Shown here: positions 13,670 through 32,642 of the stretch, one piece after another | How the letters are laid out: the number at the start of each line of letters is the position of its first letter | How positions within the stretch are numbered: the first letter of the stretch is position 1 | Origin: Actinomycetota bacterium | Lineage (GTDB): Bacteria > Actinomycetota > CADDZG01 > WHSQ01 | Reading direction: 5' to 3' | Length of the DNA stretch: 63,783 nucleotides | Assembly: GCA_009379915.1 (NCBI GenBank) | Contig: WHSV01000009.1 | Span: forward strand, 1-63,783 | Translations under genes and position numbers: made by a program | Notes under the pieces: generated by a model | Told to the model about the DNA's origin: nothing | Seen by the model: the letters and a program-made list of their open reading frames with translations, nothing else | The model's database searches: none

Positions 13670-15082
13670 GTGGTCAAGACAGGCACGCGTGGAGGCGGCC
13701 TCGACGGCTATTTCAAGATCACCGAGCGAGGCTCCAACGTTCGCACCGAGGTCATCGCCGGACTCACCACTTTCATGACGATGGCCTACATCTTGTTTCT
13801 GAATCCACTGATTCTCTCGGGACCAGACCGCGACGGCGTCACACTGGCGCCCGCGGCGGTCCTGACCGTCACCGCTCTCGCCGCCGGGCTCACGACAATC
13901 GCGATGGGGGTCTTCTCCAACTATCCCTTCGCCATCGCGGCGGGGCTCGGCCTGAATGCGGTGGTGGCCTTCCAACTGGTCGGAGGCTCGGGCCTAACCT
14001 GGCCCGAGGCCATGGGAGTGATCGTGGTCGAGGGAATCGTCATCCTGATACTCGTGCTCACGAAGTTCAGACAAGCGGTCATGGAATCGGTCCCGCTGCC
14101 ACTCAAGCATTCCATCGCCGTGGGAATCGGGTTGTTCATCGCGGTCATAGGCTTCGTCGACGCAGGATTCGTCACCACCACCACTCAGCCGAATCCTCCA
14201 CTCCAGCTGGGCGCGGCCAACGAGCTCCAGGGATGGCCGATCGGGGTCTTTCTCTTCGGCCTCCTGCTCACTCTCTTTTTGTTCTCGCGGCGAATGAAGG
14301 GGGCGCTTCTGATCGGCATCGTCGCGACCACGATCGCGGCGGTGATCGTCAACGAGGCCTTTCTCGACGGCGAAGCGTTCGGAGGCAAGGCGAACTACGG
14401 CAGCATCGCCGACTTCCCCTCGGCCGACAACTTCGATCTGATCGGGAACTTCTCGTTCGGTTTCTTTGCCGAGCTGGGCATCATCGCCGCGATCCTCGCG
14501 ATCTTCACCATCATGCTCTCCGACTTCTTCGACACCATGGGCACCGCGATCGGCTTGGGCCGCGAGGCCAATCTGCTCGATGAGGAGGGTCGCCTTCCCG
14601 ACATCGGCCGCGTGCTGGCGGTGGACTCCGGTGCTGCGGCCTTGGGGGGCGCGTTCTCAGCCTCCTCCAACACGACTTACATCGAGAGCGCTTCGGGGAT
14701 CGCCGAAGGAGGCCGTACCGGCCTCACCGCGGTCGTGGTCGGAGTGCTGTTCTTGCTATCGATCTTCTTCTCGCCACTCGCGCAGATCATTCCGTTCGAA
14801 GCGGCCGCTCCGGCACTCGTCATCGTTGGGTTCCTGATGATGACGAACATCCGGCACGTCCCCTGGGATGACTTCGAGCTCGCCATACCGGCGTTTCTCA
14901 CGATCGTCGTGATGCCGTTCACCTACTCGATTACGAACGGCATCGGAGCCAGCTTCGTCTCCTTCGTGTTCCTCAAGCTGGCGCGCGGCAAGGCTTCGGA
15001 GGTCCACCCGATGATGTACATCGCGGCCGCGGCCTTCGTCGTCTACTTCGGAATCTTCTACGTGAGGCTCTATCTCACTTAG
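13670..15082 (+). CDS. NCS2-family purine permease (AzgA-like)
   Basis: Proton-coupled nucleobase importer, 470 aa, about 12-14 membrane segments. Start GTG 13670 follows GGGGGAGGAAAA. Diagnostic AzgA-type motifs: FMTMAYILFLNP near residue 40, GLGLNAVVAF and the helix with DFFDTMGTAIGLGREANL, plus SGIAEGGRTGLTAV. AzgA proteins carry adenine, guanine or hypoxanthine. Its 3' end overlaps the convergent adenine deaminase gene by 8 nt, so supply and first catabolic step sit tail to tail. Confidence 0.92.
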   Translation: MVKTGTRGGGLDGYFKITERGSNVRTEVIAGLTTFMTMAYILFLNPLILSGPDRDGVTLAPAAVLTVTALAAGLTTIAMGVFSNYPFAIAAGLGLNAVVAFQLVGGSGLTWPEAMGVIVVEGIVILILVLTKFRQAVMESVPLPLKHSIAVGIGLFIAVIGFVDAGFVTTTTQPNPPLQLGAANELQGWPIGVFLFGLLLTLFLFSRRMKGALLIGIVATTIAAVIVNEAFLDGEAFGGKANYGSIADFPSADNFDLIGNFSFGFFAELGIIAAILAIFTIMLSDFFDTMGTAIGLGREANLLDEEGRLPDIGRVLAVDSGAAALGGAFSASSNTTYIESASGIAEGGRTGLTAVVVGVLFLLSIFFSPLAQIIPFEAAAPALVIVGFLMMTNIRHVPWDDFELAIPAFLTIVVMPFTYSITNGIGASFVSFVFLKLARGKASEVHPMMYIAAAAFVVYFGIFYVRLYLT

Positions 15083-16808
15083 GTGGCCCACCGGGTGAAT
15101 CGGTCTCCAGCGGAACGATCTCGAAACGGTCCACGTCTATCAGCCCCCGGTCGGTGATCTTCAGCGAGGGGATCACCGACAGGGCGAGGAAGCTCAGCGT
15201 CATGAAGGGCGAGGGGATCTTCACGCCCATGTCTGCCAGTACCTCATGGAGACGGTCCATGTGCTCGACCACGGTCTCGACCGGTTCATCGGACAGCAGG
15301 CCGGCCACAGGGAGCGCAAGCTCTCCGGCCACTCGTCCCTCGTCGACGACCACGATTCCTCCGCCGAGCTCCTCGAGGCGGCCCACGCATCTCGTCATGT
15401 CCTCGTCCGAGGTGCCCACCACCACGATGTTGTGAGCGTCGTGGGCGACCGACGACGCGAACGCGCCGCGCTGAAGCCCGAAGCCGGTGACGAAGCCCTT
15501 GCCGATCCGTCCGGTCGCGTGATGGCGTTCGACGACTGCGATCTTGGCGAGATCGCGGTCCGGGTCGGCCACCGCAAACCCATCGTCGAGTCTCGGTGCC
15601 TCGGTGCGCGCTTTCGTCAGCAACTGTTCGGGGATGACCTCGATGACCCGCAGCGCGCTCCCGCTCGACGCGATCCGCAGATCCTCCGCCCTCACGGGCG
15701 CGTTACGAACCGACCGCCGGACCCACATGGGAACGTCCCGGCCCTCGAACGGAAGGACGCTGCCGTTCGAGACCACCAGAGCACCTTCCTTGAAGACGTG
15801 CGTCGGCTCGAAGTGCTCGAGATCCGGCATGAGGAAGAAATCGGCTTTGAAACCGGGCGCCACGGCGCCCATGTCCGTCAGCCCGTGGTAACGAGCAGGG
15901 TGCAGCGAGGCCAGCAGGATCGCCTCCTCGGGTGCGAGCCCGTGAGCGACCGCCAGCCGGCACATGTGATTGATGTGCCCCTCTCTCACCAAGAAGTCGG
16001 GCTCCCGATCATCGGTGCAAAAAGCGCAGTTCTCGGGCCCGTAGTCCTTCACCAAAGGCAGCAGGTCGATCAGATTGCGCGCGTTCGACGCCTCCCTGAT
16101 CAGAACCCACATTCCCTTGCGCCGCTTCTCGAGGGCCTCCTCGTAGGTGGTCGACTCGTGATCCGAACGAATACCCGCCGCGAGATACGCGTCGAGCGAG
16201 CGACCGCGCACACCCGGGGCATGGCCGTCGACGTGCGTCGCTCCCCTGACCGCGAGCTTCTCGAGCTCGTCGTCGGCCCCCGCGATCACCGCGGGGAAGT
16301 TCATCATCTCCGCGACCCCGAGCGCGTGGCTTCGTCTGAGGATCGACTCCATGTCCCCGCTTGTGAGGGGCCGCCGCGGCGATTCGAACGCGCTGGCCGG
16401 CACGCACGAAGACGCCATCACGAAGACCTCGAGCGGCAGGCCCTCGCAGACGTCGAGCAGCCAGTGGATTCCGTCCGTGCCGAGCACGTTCGCGATCTCG
16501 TGCGGATCCGTGACCACCGCGGTCGTTCCATGCGGGAGCACCGCGCGCGCGAACTCGTCCACCATGAGCTTCGAGGACTCGATATGGACGTGAGCGTCGA
16601 TGAAACCGGGGACGAGATACTGATCCCGGCCGTCGACGACCTCACCGCCCTCGAAGCTGCCGAGCCCAGCGACCCGCCCCTCCGCCACCGCCACGTCGAC
16701 TTCGAGCCATTCCTTGGTGAAGGCCGCGAAGACGCGCGCGCCGCGCACGACGAGATCGGGCGGGGCATCACCCCTGGCCACGGCGATGAGACGGGCCCGG
16801 TCCGTCAC
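15075..16808 (-). CDS. ade: Adenine deaminase
   Basis: Converts adenine to hypoxanthine and ammonia; 577 aa amidohydrolase. Metal-ligand motifs DAHVHIESSKL (about residue 70), DPHEIANVLG and FCTDDREPDFLVREGHINH are visible, as is HPARYHGL. Start is GTG 16808, overlapping the stop of the xanthine dehydrogenase large subunit (GTGA). It is the last gene of the minus-strand purine operon and feeds hypoxanthine to the dehydrogenase encoded just upstream. Confidence 0.94.
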   Translation of the reverse strand: MTDRARLIAVARGDAPPDLVVRGARVFAAFTKEWLEVDVAVAEGRVAGLGSFEGGEVVDGRDQYLVPGFIDAHVHIESSKLMVDEFARAVLPHGTTAVVTDPHEIANVLGTDGIHWLLDVCEGLPLEVFVMASSCVPASAFESPRRPLTSGDMESILRRSHALGVAEMMNFPAVIAGADDELEKLAVRGATHVDGHAPGVRGRSLDAYLAAGIRSDHESTTYEEALEKRRKGMWVLIREASNARNLIDLLPLVKDYGPENCAFCTDDREPDFLVREGHINHMCRLAVAHGLAPEEAILLASLHPARYHGLTDMGAVAPGFKADFFLMPDLEHFEPTHVFKEGALVVSNGSVLPFEGRDVPMWVRRSVRNAPVRAEDLRIASSGSALRVIEVIPEQLLTKARTEAPRLDDGFAVADPDRDLAKIAVVERHHATGRIGKGFVTGFGLQRGAFASSVAHDAHNIVVVGTSDEDMTRCVGRLEELGGGIVVVDEGRVAGELALPVAGLLSDEPVETVVEHMDRLHEVLADMGVKIPSPFMTLSFLALSVIPSLKITDRGLIDVDRFEIVPLETDSPGGPPK

Positions 16809-19120
16809 CGCACCTCCCGCTCCGTCAGTCCCACGACGTCCTCCGGCCGCACGGGCGCGCGCTCCAGCGCCCGGCCGGTCGCATCCCGAAGGGCGGCGAT
16901 CACCGCCGGCGTGGACGAGATCGTCGGCGCCTCTCCAACGCCCTTGACGCCGTATGGCGCCTCGGGATCGCCGAGCTCGAGCACGTCGATCTTCATGGGC
17001 GGCATGTCGAGCACCGTGGGTATGAGGTAGTCGGTGAAGGACGGATTGCGAATCCGGCCGTTGCTCACTTGGATCTCCTCCATGAGGGCGAGTCCCAGTC
17101 CCTGCGCGCTTCCGCCCTCGATCTGACCCTCGACCGAGAGCGGATTGATCGCCTTTCCGACATCCTGGGCGGTTGCGAGCTCGACGACCCGCACGAGCCC
17201 GAGTTCGGTATCGACGTCGACGATCGCGCGGTGCGCGGCGAATGCAAACGCCACGTGCGCATCGCCCTGCCCGGTTTCGGGATCCATCGGGTAAGTCTTC
17301 CGGTGCCGGTACTCACGGGTCTCCTCGATGGAGTCCCGACCGAGCAGGTCCGCGATCGAGACCTCGATCCCGTTGGTCTGCGACACGATCTTGCCCCCCT
17401 CCATGGAGAAGTCGCTCGGAGACCCGCCGAGCTCCCCGGCCGCTCGCTCGAGCAAGCGCGCGCGCACTGCCTCACACGCGCTCTTGACCGCGCCTCCCGT
17501 CATCCACGTCTGGCGCGACGCCGACGATGAACCGGCCGAGCCGACCGTCGTGTCGGCCGGCAGGAGGGTCACGCGTTCGACGCCGAGCTCGGTGCGAGCG
17601 ACCTGGATCTGGACGACGCCGACTCCCTGACCGACCTCCGCCGCGGCGCTGTGAACCTCGACCTGCGGCTCGCCTCCGGCGGCAAACAGACGCACGCGTG
17701 CGGTGGCGAAGTCATCGGAACCCTCCGAGAAGGCGATGTTCTTGAACCCGATCGCGTAGCCGACGCCGCGCCTGATGCCCTCGCCGTGCGTAGTGTTCGA
17801 AACTCCGCCCGGGAGCGAACGAAGATCCAGAGGTGCGTCGTGTCCCGCCGGCGGAAGCGACATCTCCTTCACCCGCCGGAGCAGCTCCGCGACAGGTGCC
17901 GGCCCCTCGACGATCTGACCCGTGGGCATCGCCGACCCAGTGCTCATCGCATTTTTCATTCTGAGCTCGACGGGATCCATGCCGAGCGCGTCCGCGAGCT
18001 TGTCCATCTGGGACTCGTAGGCGAAACAGGCCTGTACCGCACCGAAACCGCGCATCGCGCCACAGGGCGGGTTGTTCGTGTACACGGCAAGGGCGTCGAC
18101 CTGGACGTTGGGCACTTCGTAGGGGCCGCAGGCGAAGGCGGTCGCGTTCGCGCACACCGCCGTCGATGACGACGCGTAGGCGCCGCCGTCGAGGACGATG
18201 CGGGCTTTGACGTAGACGAGCTCGCCTTCTCTCGTCGCACCGTGCTCGTAGTGCATGCGCGCGGGATGCCGGTGCACGTGCCCGAAGAAGGACTCCTCGC
18301 GCGAGTACATCATCTTCACGGGTCTGCCGGTGTACAGGGCCAGCATGCAGCAGTGAATCTGCATGGAGAGGTCCTCCCTCGCCCCGAACGCGCCGCCAAC
18401 TCCGGCAAGCGTGATGCGAACCTTGTCCTGCGGCAGTCCCAGACTTGCGGCCAGTTGCTCCAGATCGACGTGAAGCCACTGCGTGGCGACGTAGAGGTCA
18501 ATGCCGCCGTCCTCCGCGGGCACCGCGAGGCCGGACTCCGGCCCGAGAAAAGCCTGGTCCTGCATGGCCGTCTCGTAGGTTCCCTCGATCACGACGTCGG
18601 CGGTTACAGCCGGGTCGCCACACCGGATGCGCGCGTGGCGGATCAGGTTGCCGGAGGCGTGCAGCTGGGGCGCATCGGGTTCGACCGCCCTCTCGGGATC
18701 CACCAGCGGAGGGAGCTCCTCGTAGTCCACGCGCAGCCGGTCGGCGGCGCGGCGCGCGTTCTCGGGGTGATCCGCGGCGACGAGTGCGACCGGCTCACCC
18801 TCGTAGCGAATCTCGTCCCAGGCGAGCACCGGCTGGTCGACGATCTCCATGCCGAAGAGCTTGCGGCCCGGCACGTCCTCGTGCGTGAGCACGGCGTGCA
18901 CGCCCGAGACCGTCAACGCATCGGTGATATCCAGCGACCGGATCGCCGCGCGCGGATGAGGACTTCGCACGGTGGCGCCCCACAGCATCCCCTCGGCCCA
19001 GAGGTCGGACGAATAGGCAAACTCCCCCTTGACCTTGGGCACCGAGTCCTGCCGCCGCGCGCTGGTCCCCACTCCGCCGCGTACCGGGGGCGCGATGGTT
19101 CTCTCTTTCGTGGGCGTCAT
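16805..19120 (-). CDS. Xanthine dehydrogenase, molybdopterin-binding subunit
   Basis: Large (Mo-cofactor) subunit of the xanthine oxidase family, 771 aa. It oxidises hypoxanthine and xanthine. Signature stretches: VGGAFGAREDLS (moco contact), PPCGAMRGFGAVQACFAYE (Arg-containing substrate loop) and GVKGVGEAPT, whose Glu is the expected catalytic base. ATG 19120 has GGAAGGGAAACAAAG upstream. Together with the Fe-S and FAD subunits upstream it makes a full three-subunit enzyme; the order is interrupted by the deaminase gene and a three-hairpin spacer. Other substrates of the family (e.g. nicotinate) cannot be strictly excluded, but the context is purine. Confidence 0.92.
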   Translation of the reverse strand: MTPTKERTIAPPVRGGVGTSARRQDSVPKVKGEFAYSSDLWAEGMLWGATVRSPHPRAAIRSLDITDALTVSGVHAVLTHEDVPGRKLFGMEIVDQPVLAWDEIRYEGEPVALVAADHPENARRAADRLRVDYEELPPLVDPERAVEPDAPQLHASGNLIRHARIRCGDPAVTADVVIEGTYETAMQDQAFLGPESGLAVPAEDGGIDLYVATQWLHVDLEQLAASLGLPQDKVRITLAGVGGAFGAREDLSMQIHCCMLALYTGRPVKMMYSREESFFGHVHRHPARMHYEHGATREGELVYVKARIVLDGGAYASSSTAVCANATAFACGPYEVPNVQVDALAVYTNNPPCGAMRGFGAVQACFAYESQMDKLADALGMDPVELRMKNAMSTGSAMPTGQIVEGPAPVAELLRRVKEMSLPPAGHDAPLDLRSLPGGVSNTTHGEGIRRGVGYAIGFKNIAFSEGSDDFATARVRLFAAGGEPQVEVHSAAAEVGQGVGVVQIQVARTELGVERVTLLPADTTVGSAGSSSASRQTWMTGGAVKSACEAVRARLLERAAGELGGSPSDFSMEGGKIVSQTNGIEVSIADLLGRDSIEETREYRHRKTYPMDPETGQGDAHVAFAFAAHRAIVDVDTELGLVRVVELATAQDVGKAINPLSVEGQIEGGSAQGLGLALMEEIQVSNGRIRNPSFTDYLIPTVLDMPPMKIDVLELGDPEAPYGVKGVGEAPTISSTPAVIAALRDATGRALERAPVRPEDVVGLTEREVR

Positions 19121-19140
19121 CTTTGTTTCCCTTCCGCTGC

Positions 19141-19222: not shown

Positions 19223-19223
19223 T

Positions 19224-20585
19224 TCATCCTGAATCCAGCAGTCTGCGGGTGGCCTTGTCGAGATCCGCCGCGATGGAGGACTCGTCGCCCGTTGCGAGCC
19301 GTCCGCCCTCGACCACGGCGCGTCCCTGGACCAGCAACAACTCGACGGGCCGCGGAGGACCGAACACCAGGGCGGCGACGGGGTCTGAGATTCCCGTGTG
19401 GCCGAGGTCGTCGAGTCGCCACAAGGCGACGTCCGCCTGCATGGTGGGCTCGAGCGATCCGATCTCGTCGCGGCCGAGACAGCGCGCCCCGCCGCGGGTT
19501 GCGAGGGCGAGCGCGCCGCGCGCGGTGAGCGCGGCCGGACCGCCCGCGATGCGAGCGACGAGCAGCGCCTGGCGGATCTCGGGGCCCAGCTCGCCGCCCT
19601 CGTTGGACGCGGCGCCGTCGACGCCGAGACCGACGGGCGCGCCGGCCGAGGTGAGCGACGGGACCGGGGCGATGCCGACGCCGAGACGCGCGTTCGACGT
19701 GGGACAGTGCGCGACTCCCGTGCCCGTCTCCGCAATGCGATTGATCTCGGAGCTCGAGAGGTGGACGCAGTGGGCCAGCCACACGTCGTTCCCGAGCCAG
19801 CCGAGATCGTCGAGATACTCCACCGGGCGTACGCCGAAACGCTCCCTGCAGAACTCCTGCTCCTCGAGGGTCTCGGCCAGGTGGGTGTGGAGCCTGACGC
19901 CGCGCTCGCGGGCCAGGGCGGCGGCCTCGCGCATGAGCTCGGCGGTTACCGAGAATGGTGAGCAGGGAGCGACCGCGATCCGAAGCATCGAGCCCGGTGA
20001 GGGATCGTGCCACGCGTCGATCGCCCGCTCGGTGGCGGCGAGGATCTCGTCGCGATCCTCTGTGACTTCGTCGGGAGGAAGCCCTCCCCGTGACTTCCCG
20101 AGGTCCATCGATCCCCGGCAGGGATGGAAGCGAACGCCGAGCTCCCGTGCCGAAGCCACCTCGGCCTCGAGGAGGTCCCCCGCGCCGTGCGGGAAGACGT
20201 AATGGTGGTCGGTGGTGGTCGAGCAGCCCGAACGGGCGAGAGCGGCCAGTCCCGCGCGCGCCGCCGCGCTTTGCATGTCCTCATCGATGTGCGCCCATAT
20301 CGGGTACAACTCGGTCAACCAGTCGAAGAGGTTCGACTGTTGCGCGCGGCCGCGCGTGAGCCATTGATAGAGATGATGGTGGCAATTGATCAGGCCGGGC
20401 GTGGCGATGCAACCGCTGCCGTCGATGCGTCGGATGCCCGGCTCGAGCGCGGGTGCGGTTCCCTGGCCCACCGCTAGGATCGCGCCGCCCTCGATGACGA
20501 TGTGGCCGGAGGAGTGCTCGGAGAGCGCGTCGTCCATCGTCGCGATCGCGCAGCCCTCGATGACGACTCGGGATACGTCGTTCAT
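19224..20585 (-). CDS. 8-oxoguanine deaminase-type amidohydrolase (guanine-deaminase family)
   Basis: Amidohydrolase-superfamily deaminase, 453 aa, using ATG 20585, which overlaps the stop of the Fe-S subunit gene by 4 nt (ATGA). Metal motif NCHHHLYQWLTRG (His69-71), then DHHYVFPHGAG, HTHLAE and the late Asp in GVDGAASNEGG are as in characterised 8-oxoguanine/guanine deaminases of the SsnA-AtzA-TrzN group. In this operon a role converting guanine or 8-oxoguanine to xanthine or urate is the best reading. An s-triazine hydrolase activity is a less likely alternative. Confidence 0.88.
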   Translation of the reverse strand: MNDVSRVVIEGCAIATMDDALSEHSSGHIVIEGGAILAVGQGTAPALEPGIRRIDGSGCIATPGLINCHHHLYQWLTRGRAQQSNLFDWLTELYPIWAHIDEDMQSAAARAGLAALARSGCSTTTDHHYVFPHGAGDLLEAEVASARELGVRFHPCRGSMDLGKSRGGLPPDEVTEDRDEILAATERAIDAWHDPSPGSMLRIAVAPCSPFSVTAELMREAAALARERGVRLHTHLAETLEEQEFCRERFGVRPVEYLDDLGWLGNDVWLAHCVHLSSSEINRIAETGTGVAHCPTSNARLGVGIAPVPSLTSAGAPVGLGVDGAASNEGGELGPEIRQALLVARIAGGPAALTARGALALATRGGARCLGRDEIGSLEPTMQADVALWRLDDLGHTGISDPVAALVFGPPRPVELLLVQGRAVVEGGRLATGDESSIAADLDKATRRLLDSG

Positions 20586-21052
20586 GCGCGCGAGTTCCTG
20601 ACGGCGGCCGCGCGCACCGCGTCGAGGATCTTCTCGTAGCCGGTGCAGCGGCAGAGGTTGCCGGCCAGTGCTTCGCGGATCTCGGGATCGGTGGGCCGTG
20701 GATTGCGGGCCAGCAGCTCGTGGGTCGCAACGATCAGCCCCGGGGTGCAGAAACCGCACTGGACCGCGCCGGCCTCGACGAAGTCCTTCTGGATCGGATG
20801 AAGCTCGCCGTTCTCGGCGAGCCCCTCGACGGTGACGACGTCGCGACCCGCGGCCTGTGCCGCGAGCACGAGACAAGAGCACACGAGCACACCGTCGAGG
20901 TAGACCGAGCAGGACCCGCATTCTCCCTGTTCGCAGGCGTTCTTCGAGCCGGGCAGTCCGAGCCTCTCGCGCAGAACGTAGAGAAGGCTCTCACCCTCCC
21001 ACGCGCCGTCCACCTCGCGCGGGTTGCCGTTCACGGTTAGCTGCAAGTGCAT
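20582..21052 (-). CDS. Xanthine dehydrogenase, [2Fe-2S] subunit
   Basis: Electron-transfer subunit, 156 aa. Two [2Fe-2S] clusters: plant-ferredoxin type with Cys40, 45, 48 and 60, and the helical cluster with Cys99, 102, 134 and 136 (QCGFCTPG and GNLCRCTGY). Start ATG 21052 shares one base with the stop of the FAD subunit (TGATG) and the product overlaps the deaminase start, so three genes are translationally coupled. Confidence 0.94.
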   Translation of the reverse strand: MHLQLTVNGNPREVDGAWEGESLLYVLRERLGLPGSKNACEQGECGSCSVYLDGVLVCSCLVLAAQAAGRDVVTVEGLAENGELHPIQKDFVEAGAVQCGFCTPGLIVATHELLARNPRPTDPEIREALAGNLCRCTGYEKILDAVRAAAVRNSRA

Positions 21053-21921: not shown

Positions 21922-22017
21922 ATACCCGTTCCAGAAACTCGATTACCACTATCACTCTTCCCGTGAGACCTATGATTCGCTGCGACCAGTCTTCAACATT
22001 TTGCGTAGGAGGTGAAG
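21922..22017. promoter_or_regulatory. Divergent promoter region xdh operon / dihydropyrimidinase
   Basis: AT-richer spacer between divergent starts. A TATGAT -10-like hexamer lies at 21971-21976 facing the dihydropyrimidinase, followed by AGGAGG at 22007-22012. No clear operator palindrome was seen. Confidence 0.35.
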
Positions 22018-23729: not shown

Positions 23730-23747
23730 CTCGATTGAGCTAGAGAA

Positions 23748-24020: not shown

Positions 24021-24052
24021 CGAAGCTCCTTTCGCCGGGTGCCGTTCCTAGC

Positions 24053-24073
24053 ACTTTCCGAAATAAGGAAAGT
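24053..24073 (-). promoter_or_regulatory. Inverted-repeat operator of the toxin-antitoxin operon
   Basis: ACTTTCC-N7-GGAAAGT, perfect 7-bp arms in an unusually AT-rich patch, ending 33 nt upstream of the antitoxin ATG. Position and symmetry fit the autorepression site of an AbrB-type antitoxin. Confidence 0.55.
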
Positions 24074-24117
24074 TAGAATTTCCGCCTCGTTCGGGCCGGA
24101 CGGTATCGTGCGTCAAG

Positions 24118-25269
24118 ATGCTCGGGATGACGCGCATCCACTGGAACCCGCAGGCGACCTCCGACGCGCCGGGCCCGGCCCCCGATCGCGCGCCGCTCGG
24201 CTACCACCGCCGCCTGCCCGGCTACGAGGCCTCGCCCCTGCGGGATGCGCCCTCGCTGGCCGCCGAGCTCGATCTCGGGCGCCTATGGGTGAAGGACGAG
24301 TCGAGCCGCCTCGGCCTCCCCTCGTTCAAGATCCTCGGGGCCTCCTGGGGCGTGTACCGCGCGCTCGAGGAGCACATCGGGGGCTTCGAGGAGTGGAGTC
24401 GCCTCGACGAACTCGCCGCCCAGCTCGGGCGCCGTCGTCCGCTAACCCTGGCAGCGGCCACCGACGGCAACCACGGACGGGCAGTCGCGCGCATGGCGCA
24501 GCTTCTCGGCCTGGAGGCTCGTATCTTCGTGCCCGCGGGCACCGCCGCGGCGCGCATCGAGGGGATCGAGAGCGAGGGTGCGAGCTGCGAGGTCGTCGAC
24601 GGTAGCTACGACGACGCGGTGGCGCGCTCGGCGCGCGAGGCCGGCGACCGTTGCCTCGTGATCTCGGACACGTCGTGGCCCGGATACGAGGACGTCCCAC
24701 GTTGGGTCATCGAGGGATACTCGACGATCTTCTGGGAGATCGACGACCAGCTGTCCGAGCGGGGCGATGCTGCCCCCGATTTGGTCGTGATTCAGATCGG
24801 CGTCGGGGCGCTGGCGGCCGCGGCGGCGCGGCACTTCAGATCGGGCGTGCGCCCTTCTCCGCGCATGGTGGGCGTGGAACCGGAAGCGTCGGCCTGCGTC
24901 CTCGCCTCGATGGAGGCGGGCCGGCTCGTCACGATCCCTGGCCCGCACGACTCGATCATGGTCGGCCTCAACTGCGGGACTCCCTCGGTGGTCGCCTGGC
25001 CGCTCGTGTCGCGCGGCTTCGATGCCTACGTCGCGCTCGCCGACGAACGGGCGGGCGAGGGAATGCGTGCGCTCGCGCGCGCCGGGGTGATCTCGGGCGA
25101 GACCGGGGCCGCGGGGATCGCATGCCTGCTCGAGTTGCTCAACGAGCGCGACGCGCGCGCGCGGTTGGGCATCGACCGGAACACCGCGGCCCTCGTGCTC
25201 TCCACCGAGGGGGCCACCGATCCGGCCGCCTACGAGGCCATCGTGGGCGCTCGCCCCGGTGTGCCGTGA
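24118..25269 (+). CDS. dpaL: Diaminopropionate ammonia-lyase (YgeX-type)
   Basis: PLP fold-type II lyase, 383 aa, that converts 2,3-diaminopropionate to pyruvate and two ammonia. The PLP lysine lies in LPSFKILGASWGVYRAL (about residue 64). The AATDGNHGRAVARMA phosphate/substrate loop and GVGALAAAAARHF glycine-rich loop are also present. Start ATG 24118 is weakly supported; ATG 24127 is the alternative. In yge clusters this enzyme is the terminal step of ring-opened purine breakdown, which suits its location here. Convergent with the carbamoyltransferase gene. Confidence 0.88.
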   Translation: MLGMTRIHWNPQATSDAPGPAPDRAPLGYHRRLPGYEASPLRDAPSLAAELDLGRLWVKDESSRLGLPSFKILGASWGVYRALEEHIGGFEEWSRLDELAAQLGRRRPLTLAAATDGNHGRAVARMAQLLGLEARIFVPAGTAAARIEGIESEGASCEVVDGSYDDAVARSAREAGDRCLVISDTSWPGYEDVPRWVIEGYSTIFWEIDDQLSERGDAAPDLVVIQIGVGALAAAAARHFRSGVRPSPRMVGVEPEASACVLASMEAGRLVTIPGPHDSIMVGLNCGTPSVVAWPLVSRGFDAYVALADERAGEGMRALARAGVISGETGAAGIACLLELLNERDARARLGIDRNTAALVLSTEGATDPAAYEAIVGARPGVP

Positions 25270-25361
25270 CCCGTGATCTGGTGTGGTTCGGCGGCGAGAT
25301 GCCCGCCGACTACCGTATTTGTGGTCGTTGGGCACGTCGCTGCAGCGGCGCCGCCAGTTAG
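25266..25361 (+). CDS. Possible coupled mini-ORF after dpaL
   Basis: GTG 25266 overlaps the dpaL stop (GTGA) and opens a 31-codon frame beginning MTRDLVWFGGEMPADYRI that ends one base past the stop of the convergent carbamoyltransferase gene. It could be the truncated start of a once-coupled gene or chance. No family recognised. Confidence 0.2.
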   Translation: MTRDLVWFGGEMPADYRICGRWARRCSGAAS

Positions 25362-26365
25362 CCCGAGGTGGCGTAGCCACCCATCGTCAGCGCCAGCAGT
25401 GCTTTGCCGCTGTGCAGGCGATTCTCGGCCTCCTGGAAGACGACGGATTGCTCGCCGTCGATTACCTCGTCCGTCACCTCGTAACCGCGGTCGGCGGGAA
25501 GGCAGTGCATGTAGATGGCATCGTTCGCGGCGGTCTGCATCCGCCGGTGGTTGCAGATCCAGTCCTTGTACTTGGCGTTGAGGGCGAGCGCCTCCTGCTC
25601 GTTTCCGAACAGGTGCTCGGCCCCCCATGACTTCGGATAGACGACCTGAGCGTCGGCGAAACCCGCATCCATGTCGTCGACCTCGGTGATCGAGCCGCCA
25701 CCCCTCGTCGCAATGAGCCGGGCCCGATCCATCACGTGAGACATGAGCCGGTATTCCGGGGGCCGGGCGATGGTGACGTCGGCTCCGAAACGAGGGAGGA
25801 GCAATGCGAGTCCCTGTGGCACGCTCATCGGCTTGGCGTAAGACGGAGCGTAGGCCCACGACACGCAGACCTTCATCCCCGTCAGGTCGCGCGTGCCGAA
25901 GACCTCCTCGATCGTCATGAGATCGGCCAGTTGCTGAGTGGGATGGTCCTCGTCGCACTGCAGGTTGATGACCGGCGTCTCGGAGTAGCGCGCCACCTCC
26001 CTGATGTAGGCGTTGCCCTCGCCCGGGACCTTGTCGTGGCGGATAGCGATCCCGTGCCCGTAGGACGACAGGATGATCCCCATGTCGCGCGGGCTCTCCC
26101 CATGAGCGATCTGGGACGTGTTCGCGTCGATGAAGTGAGCGTGTCCGCCGAGCTGGGTCATCCCCGCCTCGAACGCGTTGCGAGTCCTGGTCGAGAGGTC
26201 CAGGAAGATCATGAACAACGTCCTGTCGGACAGCAGGCGGTGGGGATCGCCGGACTTGAAGGCGCCTTTCAGCTCGCGCGCGACGTCCAGAGCGGTGCCG
26301 ATCTCGTCGACCGACCAGTCGGCGGTCGAGATGAAGTCTCTCCCCGTCAGTTCAGCGCGTCCCAC
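25358..26365 (-). CDS. ygeW: YgeW-type carbamoyltransferase
   Basis: Aspartate/ornithine carbamoyltransferase-fold protein, 335 aa. Carbamoyl-phosphate loop STRTRNAFEAGM (about residues 58-69), HPTQQLADLMTIEEVFG and MHCLPAD are present. The substrate-side loop differs from true OTC/ATC, and the sequence follows the YgeW group of knotted carbamoyltransferases. In yge clusters it is thought to run in the phosphorolytic direction, taking the carbamoyl group from a ureido intermediate to give carbamoyl phosphate. GTG 26365 has GGGAGGA upstream. Last gene of the five-gene minus-strand operon. No carbamate kinase gene is nearby. Confidence 0.85.
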   Translation of the reverse strand: MGRAELTGRDFISTADWSVDEIGTALDVARELKGAFKSGDPHRLLSDRTLFMIFLDLSTRTRNAFEAGMTQLGGHAHFIDANTSQIAHGESPRDMGIILSSYGHGIAIRHDKVPGEGNAYIREVARYSETPVINLQCDEDHPTQQLADLMTIEEVFGTRDLTGMKVCVSWAYAPSYAKPMSVPQGLALLLPRFGADVTIARPPEYRLMSHVMDRARLIATRGGGSITEVDDMDAGFADAQVVYPKSWGAEHLFGNEQEALALNAKYKDWICNHRRMQTAANDAIYMHCLPADRGYEVTDEVIDGEQSVVFQEAENRLHSGKALLALTMGGYATSG

Positions 26366-26378: not shown

Positions 26379-27686
26379 CTAGAGATTTGCCATGCGCTCC
26401 CACAGCACCGGTGCGCTCACGCGACAGCGCGCCGCGAGTTCCTCCTCGTCGACGAGGAGATGCTTGTGGTCGCGTACGACCCATCGGCCCGCCACCATCA
26501 CGTCGCGCACCGCTGCGGCCGTGAGGCCGAATATGAAGTGTCCCGCGAGATTGTCGGCGTCGACGGGAGTGGGAGAGGAATACTCCAGCACCATCAGGTC
26601 GGCCGGCGCGCCCACCTCCAGCGTGCCGAGCGCCGGCTCGCCGAACAGCGCTCCGGCCACATCGGCTCCGGTGGCCAGACGTTCGGTCGCAAACGCGGGT
26701 CCGGTCGTCCCGCTTGCCTCGCGCGCCTTCAGGTAGCACGCGCGCGCCTCGGCGAACATGTCGCCGTCGATGCCGTCGGTTCCCAGCGCCACCCGCTCAC
26801 CCATGTCCTGTACCGGTGCATAACCGACTCCATTGTTCATGTTGGAGCGTGGGTTGTGAGCCACCCATGCTCCCGAGGCCCGGACCCGGGCGCGCTCGGA
26901 ATCGTCGAGATGAACGCCGTGGGCGATGAGATCGCCTTCCTCGAGCGCGCCCTCGTCGGCCAGGCGGTGGGCGGTGCGTTGACCGTAGCGTTCCTGTGAA
27001 TCGCGCTCGTCGCATTCATCCTCGGCGAGATGGATGTGAATCGGCGTCGCAGAGTCGCGAGCCACGGCAACGAGTGACTCCATCGTGGGACGGCCGATTG
27101 TGAAGGACGCGTGCGCGCCGACCATGCCGCGCACGAGGGCCCGCCGGTTCGTCTTGATAAAGCGCGCGTTCTCCTGGACGCCGGCGAGGCCCCGCGGTTC
27201 ACCGTGTCGATCGCTGACCTCGTAGCACACAACCGCGCGCATTCCAGCCTCGTCGAGTCCGTCGGCCACCGCGTCCAGCGACGAGTCGATGGCTTCGGGC
27301 GAGGCGTGGTGGTCGACGAGCGAGGTCGTTCCGGCTCTCGCGGCTTCGACCGCACCCACGAGCGCAGAAAGCTTCACCGTCTCGAGATCGAGCGCGCGAT
27401 CCAGACGCCACCACACGCGCTCGAGGATCTCGGGAAAGGTGCGCGGGAGGTCCGCGGGTCCCGGCATTCCGCGTGCCAGAGCCGAATAGAGGTGATGATG
27501 CGCGCAGACGTTGCCCGGCATCACGAGACAACCCGAGACGTCCACCCGCTCGGCCGGCGCCCGACTCGCCGCTTGGTTCCCCGGCGTTGCTTGCGAGATG
27601 CGCCCCGCTGCGACCGCGAGATCCCCCGGCACGAGTATTCCGCGGCGCGGATCGGCGAGGACTCCACCGGCGAGAAGCGCGTTCAA
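26379..27686 (-). CDS. ssnA: SsnA-type aminohydrolase
   Basis: Amidohydrolase of the SsnA group, 435 aa. Metal motif NVCAHHHLYSALARGM, then HIHLAEDECD, the His of VAHNPRSNMNNGVGYAPV and the Asp of LGTDGIDGDMFAEA. TTG 27686 is the start: it overlaps the xdhD stop by 4 nt (TTGA) and no ATG/GTG fits. SsnA belongs to the anaerobic purine cluster of enterobacteria and gut bacteria, where it acts on a purine-derived intermediate. It is paralogous to the deaminase at 19224-20585, so the island holds two of these enzymes. Confidence 0.85.
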   Translation of the reverse strand: MNALLAGGVLADPRRGILVPGDLAVAAGRISQATPGNQAASRAPAERVDVSGCLVMPGNVCAHHHLYSALARGMPGPADLPRTFPEILERVWWRLDRALDLETVKLSALVGAVEAARAGTTSLVDHHASPEAIDSSLDAVADGLDEAGMRAVVCYEVSDRHGEPRGLAGVQENARFIKTNRRALVRGMVGAHASFTIGRPTMESLVAVARDSATPIHIHLAEDECDERDSQERYGQRTAHRLADEGALEEGDLIAHGVHLDDSERARVRASGAWVAHNPRSNMNNGVGYAPVQDMGERVALGTDGIDGDMFAEARACYLKAREASGTTGPAFATERLATGADVAGALFGEPALGTLEVGAPADLMVLEYSSPTPVDADNLAGHFIFGLTAAAVRDVMVAGRWVVRDHKHLLVDEEELAARCRVSAPVLWERMANL

Positions 27687-30325
27687 GAGGCGGGTTCGGC
27701 GGCGGCGCGGCGAGCGGCGCCGAGCTTGGCGACGGCCCGCGGGTGCGCCGCCTTCGCCGCCGCTGTGTCCTTCATCGGCAACCGGGTGCGCCACTTGCCG
27801 TCGAAGGAGTGGACCGCGCCGGCCACCGCCCCGGCGGTGGGCACGAGCCCGATCTCGCCCACCCCCTTTGCTCCGTAGGGACCCTCCGGCTGAGTTTCTT
27901 CGATGAAGATGCACTCGACCCTGGGCATGCCCTTCGCGGGGATGATTCCCTGCGACTTCAGCGTCGGGGTCTTGATGTGGCCGCCCTCGACGACGAACTC
28001 CTCGGTGAGCGAGTGCCCCAAGCCCATGTGAACCGAGCCCTCGATCTGTCCCTCGAGCAGGTTCCGGTTCATCACCTTTCCCACGTCGTGGGCGGCGACC
28101 ACCCTCTCGATCCTCCCGTCGGCGTCGAGGATCACGACTTGAACGCCCCACCCGTAGCAGATGTGGGAGCGCTCGAGGTTCGGGTCGTCCATCGGCTGAG
28201 TGAGCCTGAACTCGACCTCCCCGGTGAACTCCTGACCCACGAGATCGGTCAGCTGATTACCGTTGAGCTCCGCTCTCAGCTTCTCGCAGGCGCGCTTCAC
28301 CGCGAGTCCGCCGAGAAAGGTTCCGCGCGACGCGGTCGTCTGTCCCGTCGCGAACTCGCGCTCGGTGTCCACGCGCACGCTCACGTGCTTGAGCTCGATT
28401 CCGCTCTGCGCCAGTTCCTCGCAGGCGACCTGCTGGAGCACGGTATGCACACCCTGGCCCATCTCGGTCCACGAATGCCGTACGAGAATCGATGCATCCT
28501 CCTGAACCTCCACCGATGCGCGCCCGTACTCGGGCAGGCCGTTGCCGACGCCGACGTTCTTGACCGCACTGGAGATCCCCGCGTAGCGCGCGCCCTTGTA
28601 GATCTCCTTGACGGCCTCGAGGCACTTCTTGAGACCCACTCCTTCGCCGAGAATCTGCCCGGTGCCGAAGGTCGAGCCGACATCGAGCGCGTTGATCCAG
28701 CGGATGTCGAATCCGTCCATGCCCGCCATCTCGGCGAGGCGATCCATGCAACCCTCCATTGCAAAGTTCGCCTGGTTCGAGCCGAAGCCGCGCATCGCCC
28801 CAGCCGGTGGATTGTTCGTGTAGACGGCGTGCGCCGCGACGTTGACGACCGGCACGTCGTATGCGCTGCAGGAGTGGCCGCAGGCGCGTTGCAGCACCTT
28901 GTCCCCCACGCTCGCGTAGGCCCCCGTGTCGCCCACGATGCGAGCCTTCACGGCAGTGAGCCTGCCCCTCGAGTCGCAGCCCACGGTGTAGGTCATCCGC
29001 AGCGGATGCCGTTTGACGTGCATGCGTACCGACTCTTCGCGCGAGAGCGTGAGCTTGACCGGCACGCCGGCGGCTCGCGACATGACCGCTGCGTGACCGT
29101 TGATCCCGAGGTCCTCTCTCGCCCCGAACGCGCCTCCGTTGGAGACCAGCGACACTCGCACTTTGTCCTCGGGCTCGCCGAGCAGCCGCGCGATCTGGCG
29201 ACGGTCGTCCCAGATTCCCTGGCCCCCGGACAACACGTGCATCCCCTCGTCCCTGTCGACGGCGAGCGCGGACTCGGGCTCGAGGAACGCGTGCTCGATG
29301 AACTGGGTCTGAAACGTCTCGGTGACGACATGGTCCGAGGCGGCCAGCGCCGCGTCGGCGTCACCGCGCTCGATCCTCCAGGTCTTCAGCAGGTTCCCGC
29401 CGTCGTGCACCCGTGGCGCACCCGGTTCAAGCGCGCGCTCGGGATCGGTGACGGGCTCGAGCACCTCGTAAGCGACCTCGATGGCGGCCGCCGCCCGGCG
29501 AGCGACCAGACGCGAGGTCGCGACGACCCCCGCAAGCACGTCACCGACGTAGCGGGTCGTCTCTCCCTCGGCGACGAACGCGGGCCAGTCGTTGTGGATG
29601 CAGCCCACCTCTCGCTCGCCCGCGACGTCACTTGCGAGCACTACGCGCACCACTCCGTCCATGGCCTCGGCCCTCGAGACGTCGATCTTCGTGACCACGG
29701 CGCGCGGGTGGTCGGCGAAACGAAGTGCTCCGTGCCGAGTGTCCTGTACCTCCATGTCGTTGATGAAGGGCTTGAGACCGAGTGCCAGCTCGAACGACTG
29801 GTACTTCGGCGTTCGTGAGCCGATCCGGCCGGACCAGTCGAGGTGCGGTTGCTCGTCACCCGAAAGGATTCCCCCCGCCATCTCGATCGCGTCTATGACC
29901 TTCACGTAGCCCGTGCAGCGGCAGAGGTTGCCGGCGAGTGATTTGGCTATCTCGCTGCGGGACGGTTGAGGGTTCTTGGTGAGGAGGTTGAGGGCCTTGA
30001 CCACTATTCCGGGGGAGCAGAATCCGCACTGGGACGCACCCGTCGCGGAGAACGCCAGGGCGAACGCCTCGCGCTCGTGATCGGAGAGCCCCTCCAGGGT
30101 CACGACCGACTTGCCGGCGAACTTCGAGGCCGGCTGCGAGCAAGCCACCCGCGCGTGCCCGTCGACGAGCACCGTGCAGGCCCCGCAGTAGCCCTCGGGC
30201 TGGCACCCGTCCTTGGCCGCGAGCAGGCCCAGGTCGTCTCGCAGGACGTCGAGGAGCGTCTCGTCCTCCGCGGCTTCGACCGCGACATCCTCGCCGTTCA
30301 CCTGGAACTGCAAGCGTTCGTTCAT
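27683..30325 (-). CDS. xdhD: XdhD-type molybdenum hydroxylase ([2Fe-2S] and Mo domains fused)
   Basis: Purine hydroxylase of 880 aa. Residues about 1-155 carry two [2Fe-2S] clusters (GCQPEGYCGACTVLVDG, QCGFCSPG, GNLCRCTGY). The rest is the Mo-cofactor part with GGAFGAREDLG, PPAGAMRGFGSNQANFAME and GAKGVGEIG. XdhD is usually grouped with selenium-dependent dehydrogenases because Mo-Se cofactor genes are neighbours; none are seen here and there is no in-frame TGA. ATG 30325 lies 2 nt after the YgeY stop. A FAD partner is not fused and must be the subunit at 21052 or another flavoprotein. Confidence 0.88.
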   Translation of the reverse strand: MNERLQFQVNGEDVAVEAAEDETLLDVLRDDLGLLAAKDGCQPEGYCGACTVLVDGHARVACSQPASKFAGKSVVTLEGLSDHEREAFALAFSATGASQCGFCSPGIVVKALNLLTKNPQPSRSEIAKSLAGNLCRCTGYVKVIDAIEMAGGILSGDEQPHLDWSGRIGSRTPKYQSFELALGLKPFINDMEVQDTRHGALRFADHPRAVVTKIDVSRAEAMDGVVRVVLASDVAGEREVGCIHNDWPAFVAEGETTRYVGDVLAGVVATSRLVARRAAAAIEVAYEVLEPVTDPERALEPGAPRVHDGGNLLKTWRIERGDADAALAASDHVVTETFQTQFIEHAFLEPESALAVDRDEGMHVLSGGQGIWDDRRQIARLLGEPEDKVRVSLVSNGGAFGAREDLGINGHAAVMSRAAGVPVKLTLSREESVRMHVKRHPLRMTYTVGCDSRGRLTAVKARIVGDTGAYASVGDKVLQRACGHSCSAYDVPVVNVAAHAVYTNNPPAGAMRGFGSNQANFAMEGCMDRLAEMAGMDGFDIRWINALDVGSTFGTGQILGEGVGLKKCLEAVKEIYKGARYAGISSAVKNVGVGNGLPEYGRASVEVQEDASILVRHSWTEMGQGVHTVLQQVACEELAQSGIELKHVSVRVDTEREFATGQTTASRGTFLGGLAVKRACEKLRAELNGNQLTDLVGQEFTGEVEFRLTQPMDDPNLERSHICYGWGVQVVILDADGRIERVVAAHDVGKVMNRNLLEGQIEGSVHMGLGHSLTEEFVVEGGHIKTPTLKSQGIIPAKGMPRVECIFIEETQPEGPYGAKGVGEIGLVPTAGAVAGAVHSFDGKWRTRLPMKDTAAAKAAHPRAVAKLGAARRAAAEPAS

Positions 30326-30327
30326 GT

Positions 30328-31527
30328 TCAGTCTCCGATCCCGGCGATTGCCGCGGGCAGGGCCGCGTAGTAGGCGACCGAGGCCACCAGGTGATCGACG
30401 GGGCACTGGTCGAGAACGGAATGCGCCCAACGCTCCTCGCTCGGCCCGAAACCGATCGTCGGTATTCCCAAGCGGCCGGCCGACGCAATGCCGTTGGTCG
30501 AGAACGTCCACTTGTCCACCTCGGGCGTCTTGCCGAGGGCGGCCTTCCCGGCAGCCGCTCCCGCAGCAACGAGTGGGTGGTCCGGCTCGAGCACCCACGT
30601 CGGGTAGTACTTCTCGGTTTCCAGCGTCAGCCCCGTGTAAGCGGGACGGGCGTAGTCGAGAACCTCGACCTTCGCGTTCTCGGCGGAGCCGAGGGACGCC
30701 ACCTCCTTGAGCGCAGACTCCAGGGTCTCGCCCGCGGTGAGGCGGCGGTCGAGATAGATCGTGCAGGAGTCGGGGATTGCGTTCAGAGAGGCCGTCTCGC
30801 ACTCGATCATGGTCACGGCGATGGTTCCGCGCCCGAGAAAGGCGTCGTCGGCAAGCCGCTCGTTGAGCTCGGTAACGTCGAGGACAACCGGAGCCATCGC
30901 GGCAACCGCGTTGTCACCCCGCTCCGGCGCGCTCGCGTGCGCGGACGTGCCCCTCGTTTGAACGGAGATCTCCATCCGACCTCGATGCCCCCGGTACACC
31001 GCGAGGTTCGTGCACTCACCGAGCACGACGGCGTCCACGCCGGTCACCGTCTCGGTGAGGAAATAGCCGAGCGCAAGCCCGTCACAATCCTCTTCCATGA
31101 CCGTGCCGACGACGTAGACGGTCACATCCGCGCCGTCGAGGCCTCGGCCGGCTATGAGCTTCCCACCGTAGACCTGCGACGCGACCGCGCCCTTGTTGTC
31201 CGACGCACCACGGCCGAAGACGACACCGTCGGTGAGCTTGCCCTCGTAGGGATCGTGGGGCCAGGACGAGGAATCCCCTACTCCGACCGTGTCCATGTGG
31301 GCATCGAGAACGATCTTGGTCTTACCGTCGCCGATACGTCCTACGACGTTGCCCATTGGGTCGGAAAAGACCTCGTCGTAACCGAGGTCCTCCATTTCGG
31401 CCGCGATCCGTCGCGCCACGTCTGCCTCCTCGCACGAAGGGGAGGGTATGGCGATGATCTCGCGCAAGAAACCTGTCACGTCGTCGCGATACTGTTCTGC
31501 TTGCTCCAGGTAATCGCTCAAGTTCAA
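30328..31527 (-). CDS. ygeY: YgeY-type M20 family hydrolase
   Basis: Zinc amidohydrolase/peptidase of the M20 family, 399 aa. Metal and catalytic motifs: [35 protein letters not shown] (Glu base) and [15 protein letters not shown] in the dimer domain. YgeY proteins travel with xdhD/ssnA and are predicted to remove an acyl or carbamoyl group from a ring-opened purine product. TTG 31527 overlaps the LLM stop by 4 nt (TTGA) with GAGGAC upstream. Confidence 0.88.
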
Positions 31528-32642
31528 GTCCTCGCTACTTGTAGGCCGAAGGCGTCGATCATCGCGTCGACGTCATCTCCCAGCGGATAAAGAACGGGGC
31601 AGGTCGCACCGTGCTCGATGTACTCGTTCACCTTCGCTCTGCACTCGTCCGGTGTCCCCGACGCGCTCACGAGCTGGACGACCTCGTCGGGCACCAGTGC
31701 CGCCGCTTTCTCGATCTCATCGTGTGTGGCGGGCCAGTCGACCACCGCGTTGATCTCCTCGATCAGCGACGAGTCGACGCCGGAGGCCTTCATGATATGC
31801 GGTTGCTGTCCGAGGTACTGCGTGAGGAGCAAACGGGCCGCGTCCAGCGCTTTGGTCCGATCGTCGTCGAGCGAGCAAACCACGAGCTGGGGGCGATCGA
31901 CGTCGTCGATGCTCCGGCCCCCGCGCCTGGCCCCCGCTTCGAGCCGCTCCATCGCATCGTCGTTGTAACTCGGCGAGACCATGTAATTGAGAACGACGCC
32001 GTCGGCGATCTCGCCGGCGAGCTCGAGCATCTTGGGGCCGGTGGCGCCGACGTAGATCGGGATGTCGCGCGCGGAGACGTCTCCGTGTACGACATCGATC
32101 CTCACACCGTCGAGGTGCACGAACTCACCCTCGTAGGAGACCTCGTCGAGAGTGAACAGCCTCCGGCAAGCCTCCACCGTTTCGCGCATGCACTGCAGCG
32201 GATGGCGGCGAGAGATGCCGACCTTGCGCGCCAGCGGATCCCACCAGGCCCCCAGTCCGAGCATGACGCGGGCCGGCGCGAGGTCGTCGAGCGTGACGAA
32301 GGTCGCGGCCAGCAGTCCAACGTTGCGCGTCCACGTGTTCACCACCCCCGAACCGACCTTGATGCGATCGGTCGATGCGGCGAAGGCGGCCATCGGCACC
32401 GTCGCCTCTCTGACGAGGCGAGACTCGGCCTGCCACACCGCCTCGAAGCCCCTCTCCTCCGCCCGCTGCACGTAGCGAATCCCATCCCTTATGGGGTGCT
32501 TGTCCTGCAGGTAGAGAGCTACGCGCTGGGGAGATGCGTTCGCTGTAGGGCTCCTCTTAGACGCCGGGTGTGCGTTCAGTCGATTATGCGGAAGCCTCGG
32601 AGCTCGCGTCAACATCGTCGAAACGTCGCCAGAGGCGACCAT
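31524..32642 (-). CDS. LLM-class (F420-type) flavin-dependent oxidoreductase
   Basis: Luciferase-like TIM-barrel oxidoreductase, 372 aa if begun at ATG 32642. Recognisable parts: [15 protein letters not shown] at the first strand, [33 protein letters not shown] and [19 protein letters not shown]. This is the F420-dependent (methylene-H4MPT reductase-like) branch; FMN cannot be excluded. The first 40 residues are not family-like. ATG 32642 lies inside the palindromic element at 32637-32685 with GGGAGG 11 nt upstream; ATG 32615 is the alternative. First gene of the ygeY-xdhD-ssnA-ygeW operon, so a redox step in purine catabolism is likely. Confidence 0.85.

Follow-up and report, generated by a model that had tools for sequence, protein, structure and literature searches.

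A purine-breakdown island in the draft genome of an Actinomycetota bacterium (CADDZG01; WHSQ01; assembly GCA_009379915.1, contig WHSV01000009.1) raises the question of the route by which purines would be taken apart there, and of the reductant that such a route would use. The window, i.e., the whole stretch of DNA that was analysed, is 63,783 nt long, and the host assembly is 95% complete, so that gene absences from it are not absolute. Every gene that an earlier note had named at positions 13670–32642 was found there by profile scores and by identity to E. coli proteins; scores of this size exclude a chance result for the gene content of the island, and the four transcription units proposed in that note are fair by strand pattern. 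The island probably encodes a purine-to-pyruvate route in which coenzyme F420 serves as the reductant of the reductive urate pathway.

The first operon, on the reverse strand, would convert adenine, guanine and hypoxanthine/xanthine to urate. Its order is xdhB (FAD-binding subunit, 21052–21921; PF00941 and PF03450), xdhC ([2Fe-2S] subunit, 20582–21052; NF043084 174 bits, below the cut-off of 217), an 8-oxoguanine/guanine deaminase-like enzyme (19224–20585; NF006055 671 bits, cut-off 532), xdhA (the PucD-type Mo subunit of xanthine dehydrogenase, 16805–19120; TIGR03196 891 bits, cut-off 783.65) and the adenine deaminase gene ade (15075–16808; TIGR01178 572 bits, cut-off 472.5). On the forward strand lie an NCS2-type purine permease (13454–15082; PF00860 136 bits), the true start of which is probably downstream of 13454, the hydantoinase/dihydropyrimidinase HyuA (22012–23439; TIGR02033 531.9 bits, cut-off 393.25; 41% identity to E. 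coli HyuA) and the 2,3-diaminopropionate ammonia-lyase DpaL/YgeX (24118–25269; NF006058 339 bits, cut-off 276; 34% identity to E. coli YgeX). The last two make up the hyuA-dpaL unit. DpaL scores below both TIGRFAM diaminopropionate models (TIGR03528, 269 against 532 bits; TIGR01747, 252 against 274), but HyuA, DpaL and the YgeY described below each exceed at least one curated-model cut-off.

The second operon, also on the reverse strand, comprises five genes in the order LLM-ygeY-xdhD-ssnA-ygeW; with the starts chosen here, LLM/ygeY and xdhD/ssnA overlap by 4 nt, and the two gaps measure 2 and 13 nt. Its first gene (31524–32642; PF00296 228 bits) encodes a luciferase-like (LLM-class) F420-type oxidoreductase, proposed here to be an F420H2-dependent yanthine (2,8-dioxopurine) reductase. 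It is followed by YgeY, an M20-family ureido hydrolase (30328–31527, TTG start taken; NF009555 496 bits, cut-off 321; 50% identity to E. coli YgeY), and by XdhD, a Mo/[2Fe-2S] hydroxylase of the TIGR03311 type and the proposed urate-to-yanthine reductase (27683–30325, start ATG at 30325 taken; 930 bits, cut-off 830.45). SsnA, the aminohydrolase proposed to open reduced yanthine (26379–27686, TTG start taken), shares 39% identity with its E. coli namesake across 408 aa, though it stays under both NCBIfam cut-offs (NF005540, 403 bits against 444; TIGR03314, 387 against 455.5); in a scan of 396 genomes it falls in the group with at least 263 bits, the others reaching at most 208. The last gene encodes a YgeW-like carbamoyltransferase (25358–26365; 38% identity to E. 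coli YgeW), which scores 236.6 and 225.2 bits against NCBIfam YgeW equivalog cut-offs of 453 and 500 and is likewise under the OTC cut-offs. It was assigned by its tree grouping, a clade of 19 rows that includes E. coli YgeW (support 100/99) and leaves ArgI and the genome's own OTC outside, the placement of E. coli YgeW being less sure because of its long branch. The OTC-like and ATC-like genes of the genome lie elsewhere, on contigs C46 and C58, and are distinct from the YgeW-like gene of the island.

The pathway to which these genes are compared was published in 2025 by Li et al. (PMC12507026) as XdhD-YgfK/UacX-SsnA-HyuA-YgeW/UacY-YgeY-YgeX, and all of its steps save YgfK/UacX have a candidate enzyme inside 11 kb of the window. 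According to PMC12507026 and PMC12990295, the reactions of XdhD, SsnA, HyuA, YgeW, YgeY and YgeX are known from enzyme studies in E. coli, C. difficile and C. sporogenes. By analogy, XdhD would reduce urate to yanthine, and the LLM protein with F420H2 would reduce yanthine to dihydro-yanthine, replacing YgfK or UacX. SsnA would then open the ring of dihydro-yanthine to give ureidomethyl-hydantoin, and HyuA would convert this to diureidopropionate; the earlier proposal that hydantoinase opens the ring agrees in outline with the opening of the second ring by the purified E. coli and C. difficile enzymes described in PMC12507026. YgeW would take one carbamoyl group off diureidopropionate as carbamoyl phosphate, YgeY would remove the other hydrolytically, and DpaL would turn diaminopropionate into pyruvate and ammonia.

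XdhD is 25% identical to E. coli XdhD, and the Glu of its KGVGE motif is present. It could be an ordinary xanthine dehydrogenase that works in the oxidative direction, with the operon being fed by external reduced purines or 2,8-dioxopurine, a reading to which the name of TIGR03311, “selenium-dependent xanthine dehydrogenase”, lends itself, as does the comparison with E. coli XdhD near Glu606, where the alignment is too heavily gapped for judgement. This reading is given very little credence, since the neighbouring operon already encodes a PucD-type XDH and since 16 of 22 ssnA-containing loci titled Actinomycetota hold an XdhD of the window's type. No FAD-subunit gene for XdhD was found within its operon, which was counted against the F420 explanation.

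The earlier note assigned no enzyme to the reductive dearomatisation; its coordinates cover the LLM gene at the head of the operon, which encodes an F420-type reductase, but the text of the note omits that gene. The ten best solved sequence kin of the LLM protein are F420 enzymes, as are its thirty best fold matches (structure model pLDDT 83.4). In the host, the F420-biosynthesis genes CofE and CofD adjoin each other on contig C83. The LLM protein is proposed to take F420H2 as its reductant and yanthine as its substrate. Against this counts that F420 ligase turned up in 8, not all, of the 9 LLM carriers among 41 genomes. The closest solved kin of the LLM protein, with the same fold and ~29% identity, is the F420-dependent methylene-H4MPT reductase (Mer) rather than a purine enzyme, although the genomic setting of the LLM protein is purine breakdown. 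The island may encode the reductive urate pathway while the LLM protein serves a different F420 function, such as a Mer-like reduction of a C1 carrier or the reduction of a side product, and an unlinked enzyme reduces yanthine. A possible candidate for the latter is a YgfK-like partial protein on host contig C66, which aligns to positions 442–934 of the YgfK model (246.8 bits, cut-off 835.3). Among the eight other LLM carriers in the set of 41 genomes, only one (G029) has a comparable, weaker match (155 bits), the best E-values of the other seven being 1e-5 to 1e-8, and no folate or methanopterin genes were recognised among the annotated LLM neighbours, which are part of all neighbours. Another job for the LLM protein is accordingly held to be unlikely, and the distribution of the gene argues against it further.

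In a sample of 396 genomes of Actinomycetota, the host included, LLM was found in 28, SsnA in 50 and both in 25 (Fisher p 1.3e-22, uncorrected for kinship), leaving three LLM carriers in which SsnA is missing. YgfK was found in 15 genomes, all of which have SsnA, and never together with LLM, so that LLM and YgfK are mutually exclusive in this sample and are each accompanied by SsnA; ten of the 50 SsnA carriers have neither. LLM and SsnA share a contig in 18 of the 25 double carriers, at most 5.3 kb apart and within 300 bp in 11 of the 18, and are on separate contigs in the other seven. Among named genomes, ssnA was seen at 51 of 80 LLM loci, and ssnA, an xdh gene or an F420-group gene at 73 of 80. 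The loci that lack ssnA favor another job for the LLM protein: they number 29 of 80, partly at contig ends, and 11 of the 47 with enough flank, and at three LLM loci (L047, L057 and L037) the annotated neighbours are not obviously purine genes. The pairing of LLM with ssnA recurs across Actinomycetota and Chloroflexota, and the description of the island as an unusual actinobacterial version, if meant as a one-off, does not hold. As a side observation, some relatives have a second, ATCase-like carbamoyltransferase; YgeY was found in none of ten such relatives, but 64 of the 80 loci show neither.

That ygeW/X/Y, xdhD and ssnA belong to a set for breaking down urate, with diaminopropionate and pyruvate at its end, as the earlier note stated, is borne out by PMC12507026, but its term “oxygen-independent” does not fit a host with three matches to haem-copper oxidase subunit I. 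At least one haem-copper oxidase was found in 27 of the 28 LLM carriers versus 1 of the 15 YgfK carriers, a comparison confounded by kinship. The reductive urate route would here run in an oxygen-respiring cell. The oxidase genes, the classical xdh genes and the hydantoinase could instead belong to an oxidative breakdown by a urate oxidase of another family followed by allantoinase, with the yge-type genes acting on other ureido or hydantoin compounds. Such a route could draw on an allantoinase-like gene on host contig C3 (TIGR03178 320.9 bits, under the cut-off of 357.85). The earlier note, which saw no allantoinase, is incomplete on this point; uricase (PF01014) and YgfK over its cut-off were not found genome-wide. 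PF01014 uricase was likewise found in none of the nine LLM carriers among the 41 genomes, the two genomes that have it being without LLM. With XdhD, SsnA and LLM sharing an operon with YgeY and YgeW, and with LLM and SsnA co-occurring, the oxidative route is considered very unlikely. The earlier interpretation is thus partly supported, with F420H2 and the LLM protein as the probable source of the reductive step.

More tentatively, and with slightly less than even confidence, an aerobic form of the reductive urate pathway is proposed, in which oxygen-respiring Actinomycetota (and Chloroflexota) would replace the Fe-S yanthine reductase by an F420H2-dependent LLM enzyme, and some lineages would also replace YgeY by a second, ATCase-like carbamoyltransferase, both ureido groups leaving as carbamoyl phosphate. 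If this were true, the two carbamoyl phosphates, together with a neighbouring carbamate kinase, could be worth two ATP for each urate. Were the ATCase-like enzyme to act on the alpha (2-)ureido group, the 3-ureido group would fall to YgeW, a point of relevance to a published disagreement over the order of cleavage. Should the F420 variant work in oxygen-respiring environmental bacteria, reductive purine recycling would be far wider than thought, F420 would have a physiological role new to it, and a yanthine reductase free of Fe-S clusters would offer itself as a component of urate-lowering enzymes or of probiotics.

Among known systems, the E. coli/C. difficile pathway (PMC12507026) shares with the window a neighbourhood with homologues of XdhD, SsnA, HyuA, YgeW, YgeY and YgeX, and pyruvate as the end product. 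In contrast to it, the host genome is without a YgfK over the cut-off, which makes this a variant and not the E. coli form of the pathway, and an F420-type LLM gene comes first in the operon; neither a UacX-like gene nor a carbamate kinase is among the annotated ORFs of the island, XdhD is of the TIGR03311 type with no YgfM-like gene in its operon, and the host has haem-copper oxidases. The Puc-type classical xanthine dehydrogenase is matched by xdhA-B-C of the first operon, which here appears to supply urate to the reductive rather than the uricase branch. A further likeness is to Chloroflexota, for which PMC12507026 predicts an F420 “luciferase-family” reductase by bioinformatics only. The LLM proteins at Chloroflexota-titled loci are 62–74% identical to that of the window, lie near ssnA at 23 of 41 loci and are, judging by family and phylum, presumably the luciferase-family protein of that study. 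The order ssnA-fno-cofE-nitroreductase-cofD-cofC-LLM recurs there, with cof genes at 21 of the 23 loci having enough flank. Here, by contrast, the host is an actinomycetote, xdhD, ygeY and ygeW lie inside the LLM operon, and cofE-cofD are on a separate contig. An F420-type LLM reductase of the kind predicted earlier for Chloroflexota is present here in Actinomycetota.

The island is best read as a variant of the reductive urate pathway that depends on F420 and is probably aerobic. The published steps of the pathway were each followed with purified enzymes (Li et al. 2025, PMC12507026, in the part of the article available): urate is reduced to yanthine by XdhD, ureidomethyl-hydantoin is formed by SsnA acting with YgfK (in C. 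difficile, UacX), HyuA then gives diureidopropionate, the two ureido groups are taken off by YgeW (or UacY) and YgeY, and YgeX releases pyruvate. Counterparts are present in the window for each of these steps, YgfK/UacX excepted, and it is this reductase that is proposed to be replaced by LLM, an F420-type luciferase-like oxidoreductase (31524-32642, minus strand). The window's XdhD (27683-30325) is of the TIGR03311 type and 25% identical to the E. coli enzyme; an XdhD of C. difficile, at 25.63% identity, was likewise assigned by position (PMC12507026). Around Glu606 of E. coli XdhD the alignment is too gapped to judge conservation in the window's protein. In one aligned segment the PucD-type XdhA (16805-19120) reads FLGPE and XdhD reads FLEPE, the Glu of the latter being, as we take it, similar to the pocket Glu of classical xanthine dehydrogenases.

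The island comprises a pair of operons on the minus strand and two units on the plus strand. The first operon, from 21921 down to 15075, has the order xdhB-xdhC-8-oxoguanine deaminase-xdhA-ade, and the second, from 32642 down to 25358, the order LLM-ygeY-xdhD-ssnA-ygeW, while the plus strand carries the permease (13454-15082) and hyuA with dpaL (22012-25269). For the start codons taken, LLM/ygeY and xdhD/ssnA overlap by 4 nt each, whereas ygeY and xdhD are separated by 2 nt and ssnA and ygeW by 13 nt. Every gene named in an earlier note, which had claimed a purine-catabolism island from the sequence, was found within these 19 kb, and its interpretation holds in outline, with the decisive enzyme, LLM, missing from it; its coordinates reach precisely to where the LLM gene begins, yet the gene is absent from its text. 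A gene for a glutathione-independent formaldehyde dehydrogenase (32987-34207; TIGR02819, 770 bits) is oriented divergently to the LLM operon. The window has no match in an Rfam scan, and the tRNA-Ser called by ARAGORN at 11570-11658 (plus strand), inside the ExeM/NucH nuclease gene (10593-13358, minus strand), where Rfam has no match either, is probably a false call.

The LLM protein belongs to PF00296, and its ten best solved relatives by sequence, as well as the first 30 fold matches to its model (pLDDT 83.4), are F420 enzymes, with Mer, the F420-dependent methylene-H4MPT reductase, first in both cases; the profile alignment of LLM starts beyond the catalytic Glu of Mer. Among 40 relatives, 8 have an orthologue, at 71-85% identity, and the two nearest relatives in named genomes (84 and 79%), both “Actinomycetota bacterium” records, share the window's gene order up to the ends of their contigs; the host is accordingly placed in this phylum. 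In 396 genomes, drawn evenly across the phylum, LLM orthologues were found in 28, SsnA in 50 (counted from at least 263 bits, with 13 further genomes at 173-208 bits left out) and YgfK in 15. LLM occurred with SsnA in 25 of these genomes, spread over 7 family codes, YgfK with SsnA in 15, and LLM with YgfK in none, in tests that ignore kinship; 10 SsnA carriers had neither LLM nor YgfK, and 3 LLM carriers were without SsnA. Where LLM and SsnA occurred together, they lay on one contig in 18 of the 25 genomes, at most 5.3 kb apart (11 of these 18 with a distance of no more than 300 bp), and on different contigs in the other 7.

When named genomes were scanned with the LLM alignment, at least 532 relatives were confirmed, and the analysis used the best 80, which are the closest ones and not a random sample; neighbour families were similarity clusters, each named by Pfam on one member, and the locus counts are affected by contig ends. 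Among these best 80 of 532, ssnA was found in 51 loci, an xdh gene in 57, an F420-biosynthesis gene (cofC, cofD or cofE) in 32, an Fno-like F420:NADP oxidoreductase in 29, and YgfK in none; at least one member of the ssnA, xdh or F420 groups, the nitroreductase being counted in the last, was present in 73. A recurring order in Chloroflexota was ssnA-fno-cofE-nitroreductase-cofD-cofC-LLM, and cof genes were present in 21 of the 23 Chloroflexota loci in this set with enough flank. The F420-biosynthesis genes and the Fno-like gene are enclosed by ssnA and LLM in the loci L066, L074, L089, L097 and other Chloroflexota loci; upstream of ssnA, L066, L089 and L097 carry a PALP-family PLP enzyme, for which the best match in L097 was cysteine synthase, under the cut-off. 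A recurring 871-aa Chloroflexota neighbour was set aside as a pathway component, having no Pfam match and a translation that reads as a membrane protein. In a MAG titled Acidobacteria, an amidohydrolase (L047:8183-9811; PRK09061 model, 196 bits against a cut-off of 340) adjoins LLM without ssnA, and might serve as a comparison for UacY of C. difficile. In the host itself, CofE and CofD are adjacent on another contig (C83), and of the 9 genomes with LLM in a set of 41, 8 contain an F420 ligase.

Could an ordinary YgfK, or a different route altogether, be present elsewhere in the host? Its draft genome (3.39 Mb in 158 contigs, 95% complete), of which the window is one contig, has no YgfK over the cut-off. 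It does encode a partial YgfK-like protein (contig C66, 4853-6385; 246.8 bits to TIGR03315, positions 442-934), which was rejected as a conserved reductase on finding no comparable match in 7 of the 8 other LLM carriers of the 41-genome set. The earlier note had named a full uricase/allantoin pathway as an outcome that would overturn its claim. Uricase (PF01014) was found neither in the draft host genome nor in the other LLM carriers of the 41 genomes; an allantoinase-like gene lies on contig C3, because of which the host may still use allantoin. The island carbamoyltransferase was also considered as argF and rejected, as genes resembling ornithine and aspartate carbamoyltransferase occur elsewhere in the genome and the tree separates them from the island protein, which groups with E. 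coli YgeW.

Haem-copper oxidase subunit I (PF00115) was found in 27 of 28 LLM carriers against 1 of 15 YgfK carriers, a comparison confounded by kinship, since the former represent 8 family codes and the latter 3; the YgfK carrier with the oxidase (G303) is the sole one outside two families. The host genome has PF00115 three times. Many Actinomycetota are aerobes anyway, so some of the oxidase count among LLM carriers (27 of 28) may be background. LLM enzymes are not known to carry an Fe-S cluster. The 4Fe-4S clusters of YgfK needed anaerobic reconstitution (PMC12507026). The swap of YgfK for LLM may make the reductive route workable in air.

In some loci a second exchange is likely, at the YgeY step. 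Two carbamoyltransferase genes were present in 10 of the best 80 of 532 loci (L034, L039, L042, L051, L052, L053, L055, L056, L068 and L099), adjacent in 8 of the 10, each pair consisting of one YgeW-clade member and one of another, ATCase-like kind; 6 of these loci also contain a carbamate kinase gene (the one kinase scanned scored 397 over 266). The other kind forms a well-supported clade of its own (10 rows), joined to E. coli PyrB at 93/84, and the two of ten scanned were both recognised as aspartate carbamoyltransferase, at 254 and 256 bits against a cut-off of 236.95. YgeY was searched for in 19 genomes, hand-picked mostly by locus content: no orthologue was found in the 10 with the ATCase-like gene (best match 90 bits), whereas it was present (344-886 bits) in all 5 whose locus includes ygeY, one of them being the window's own genome. 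None was found in the genomes of L059 and L106, whose loci reach a contig end at that place, nor in G373 and G107 (best 47 and 102 bits), chosen as LLM carriers only. Within the best 80 loci, ygeY and a second carbamoyltransferase never occurred together, and neither was present in 64. The window is of the YgeY type; where the second carbamoyltransferase is present, it likely takes over the YgeY step.

Among the open-licence PMC matches listed, only PMC12507026 and PMC12990295 dealt, by their titles, with the chemistry of the pathway. In the available part of PMC12507026 no mention of a link to F420 biosynthesis was found, its main text having “F420” four times and “cofD” and “biosynthesis” not at all. 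The F420 idea itself was already in print there for Chloroflexota, and some Actinomycetota nodes of its Fig. 3c may already be coloured. Beyond what that part of the article holds, the present comparison adds, by genomic inference throughout, the Actinomycetota form of the pathway, the counts of co-occurrence, the neighbourhood with F420-biosynthesis genes, the presence of oxidase genes in the hosts, and the second carbamoyltransferase.
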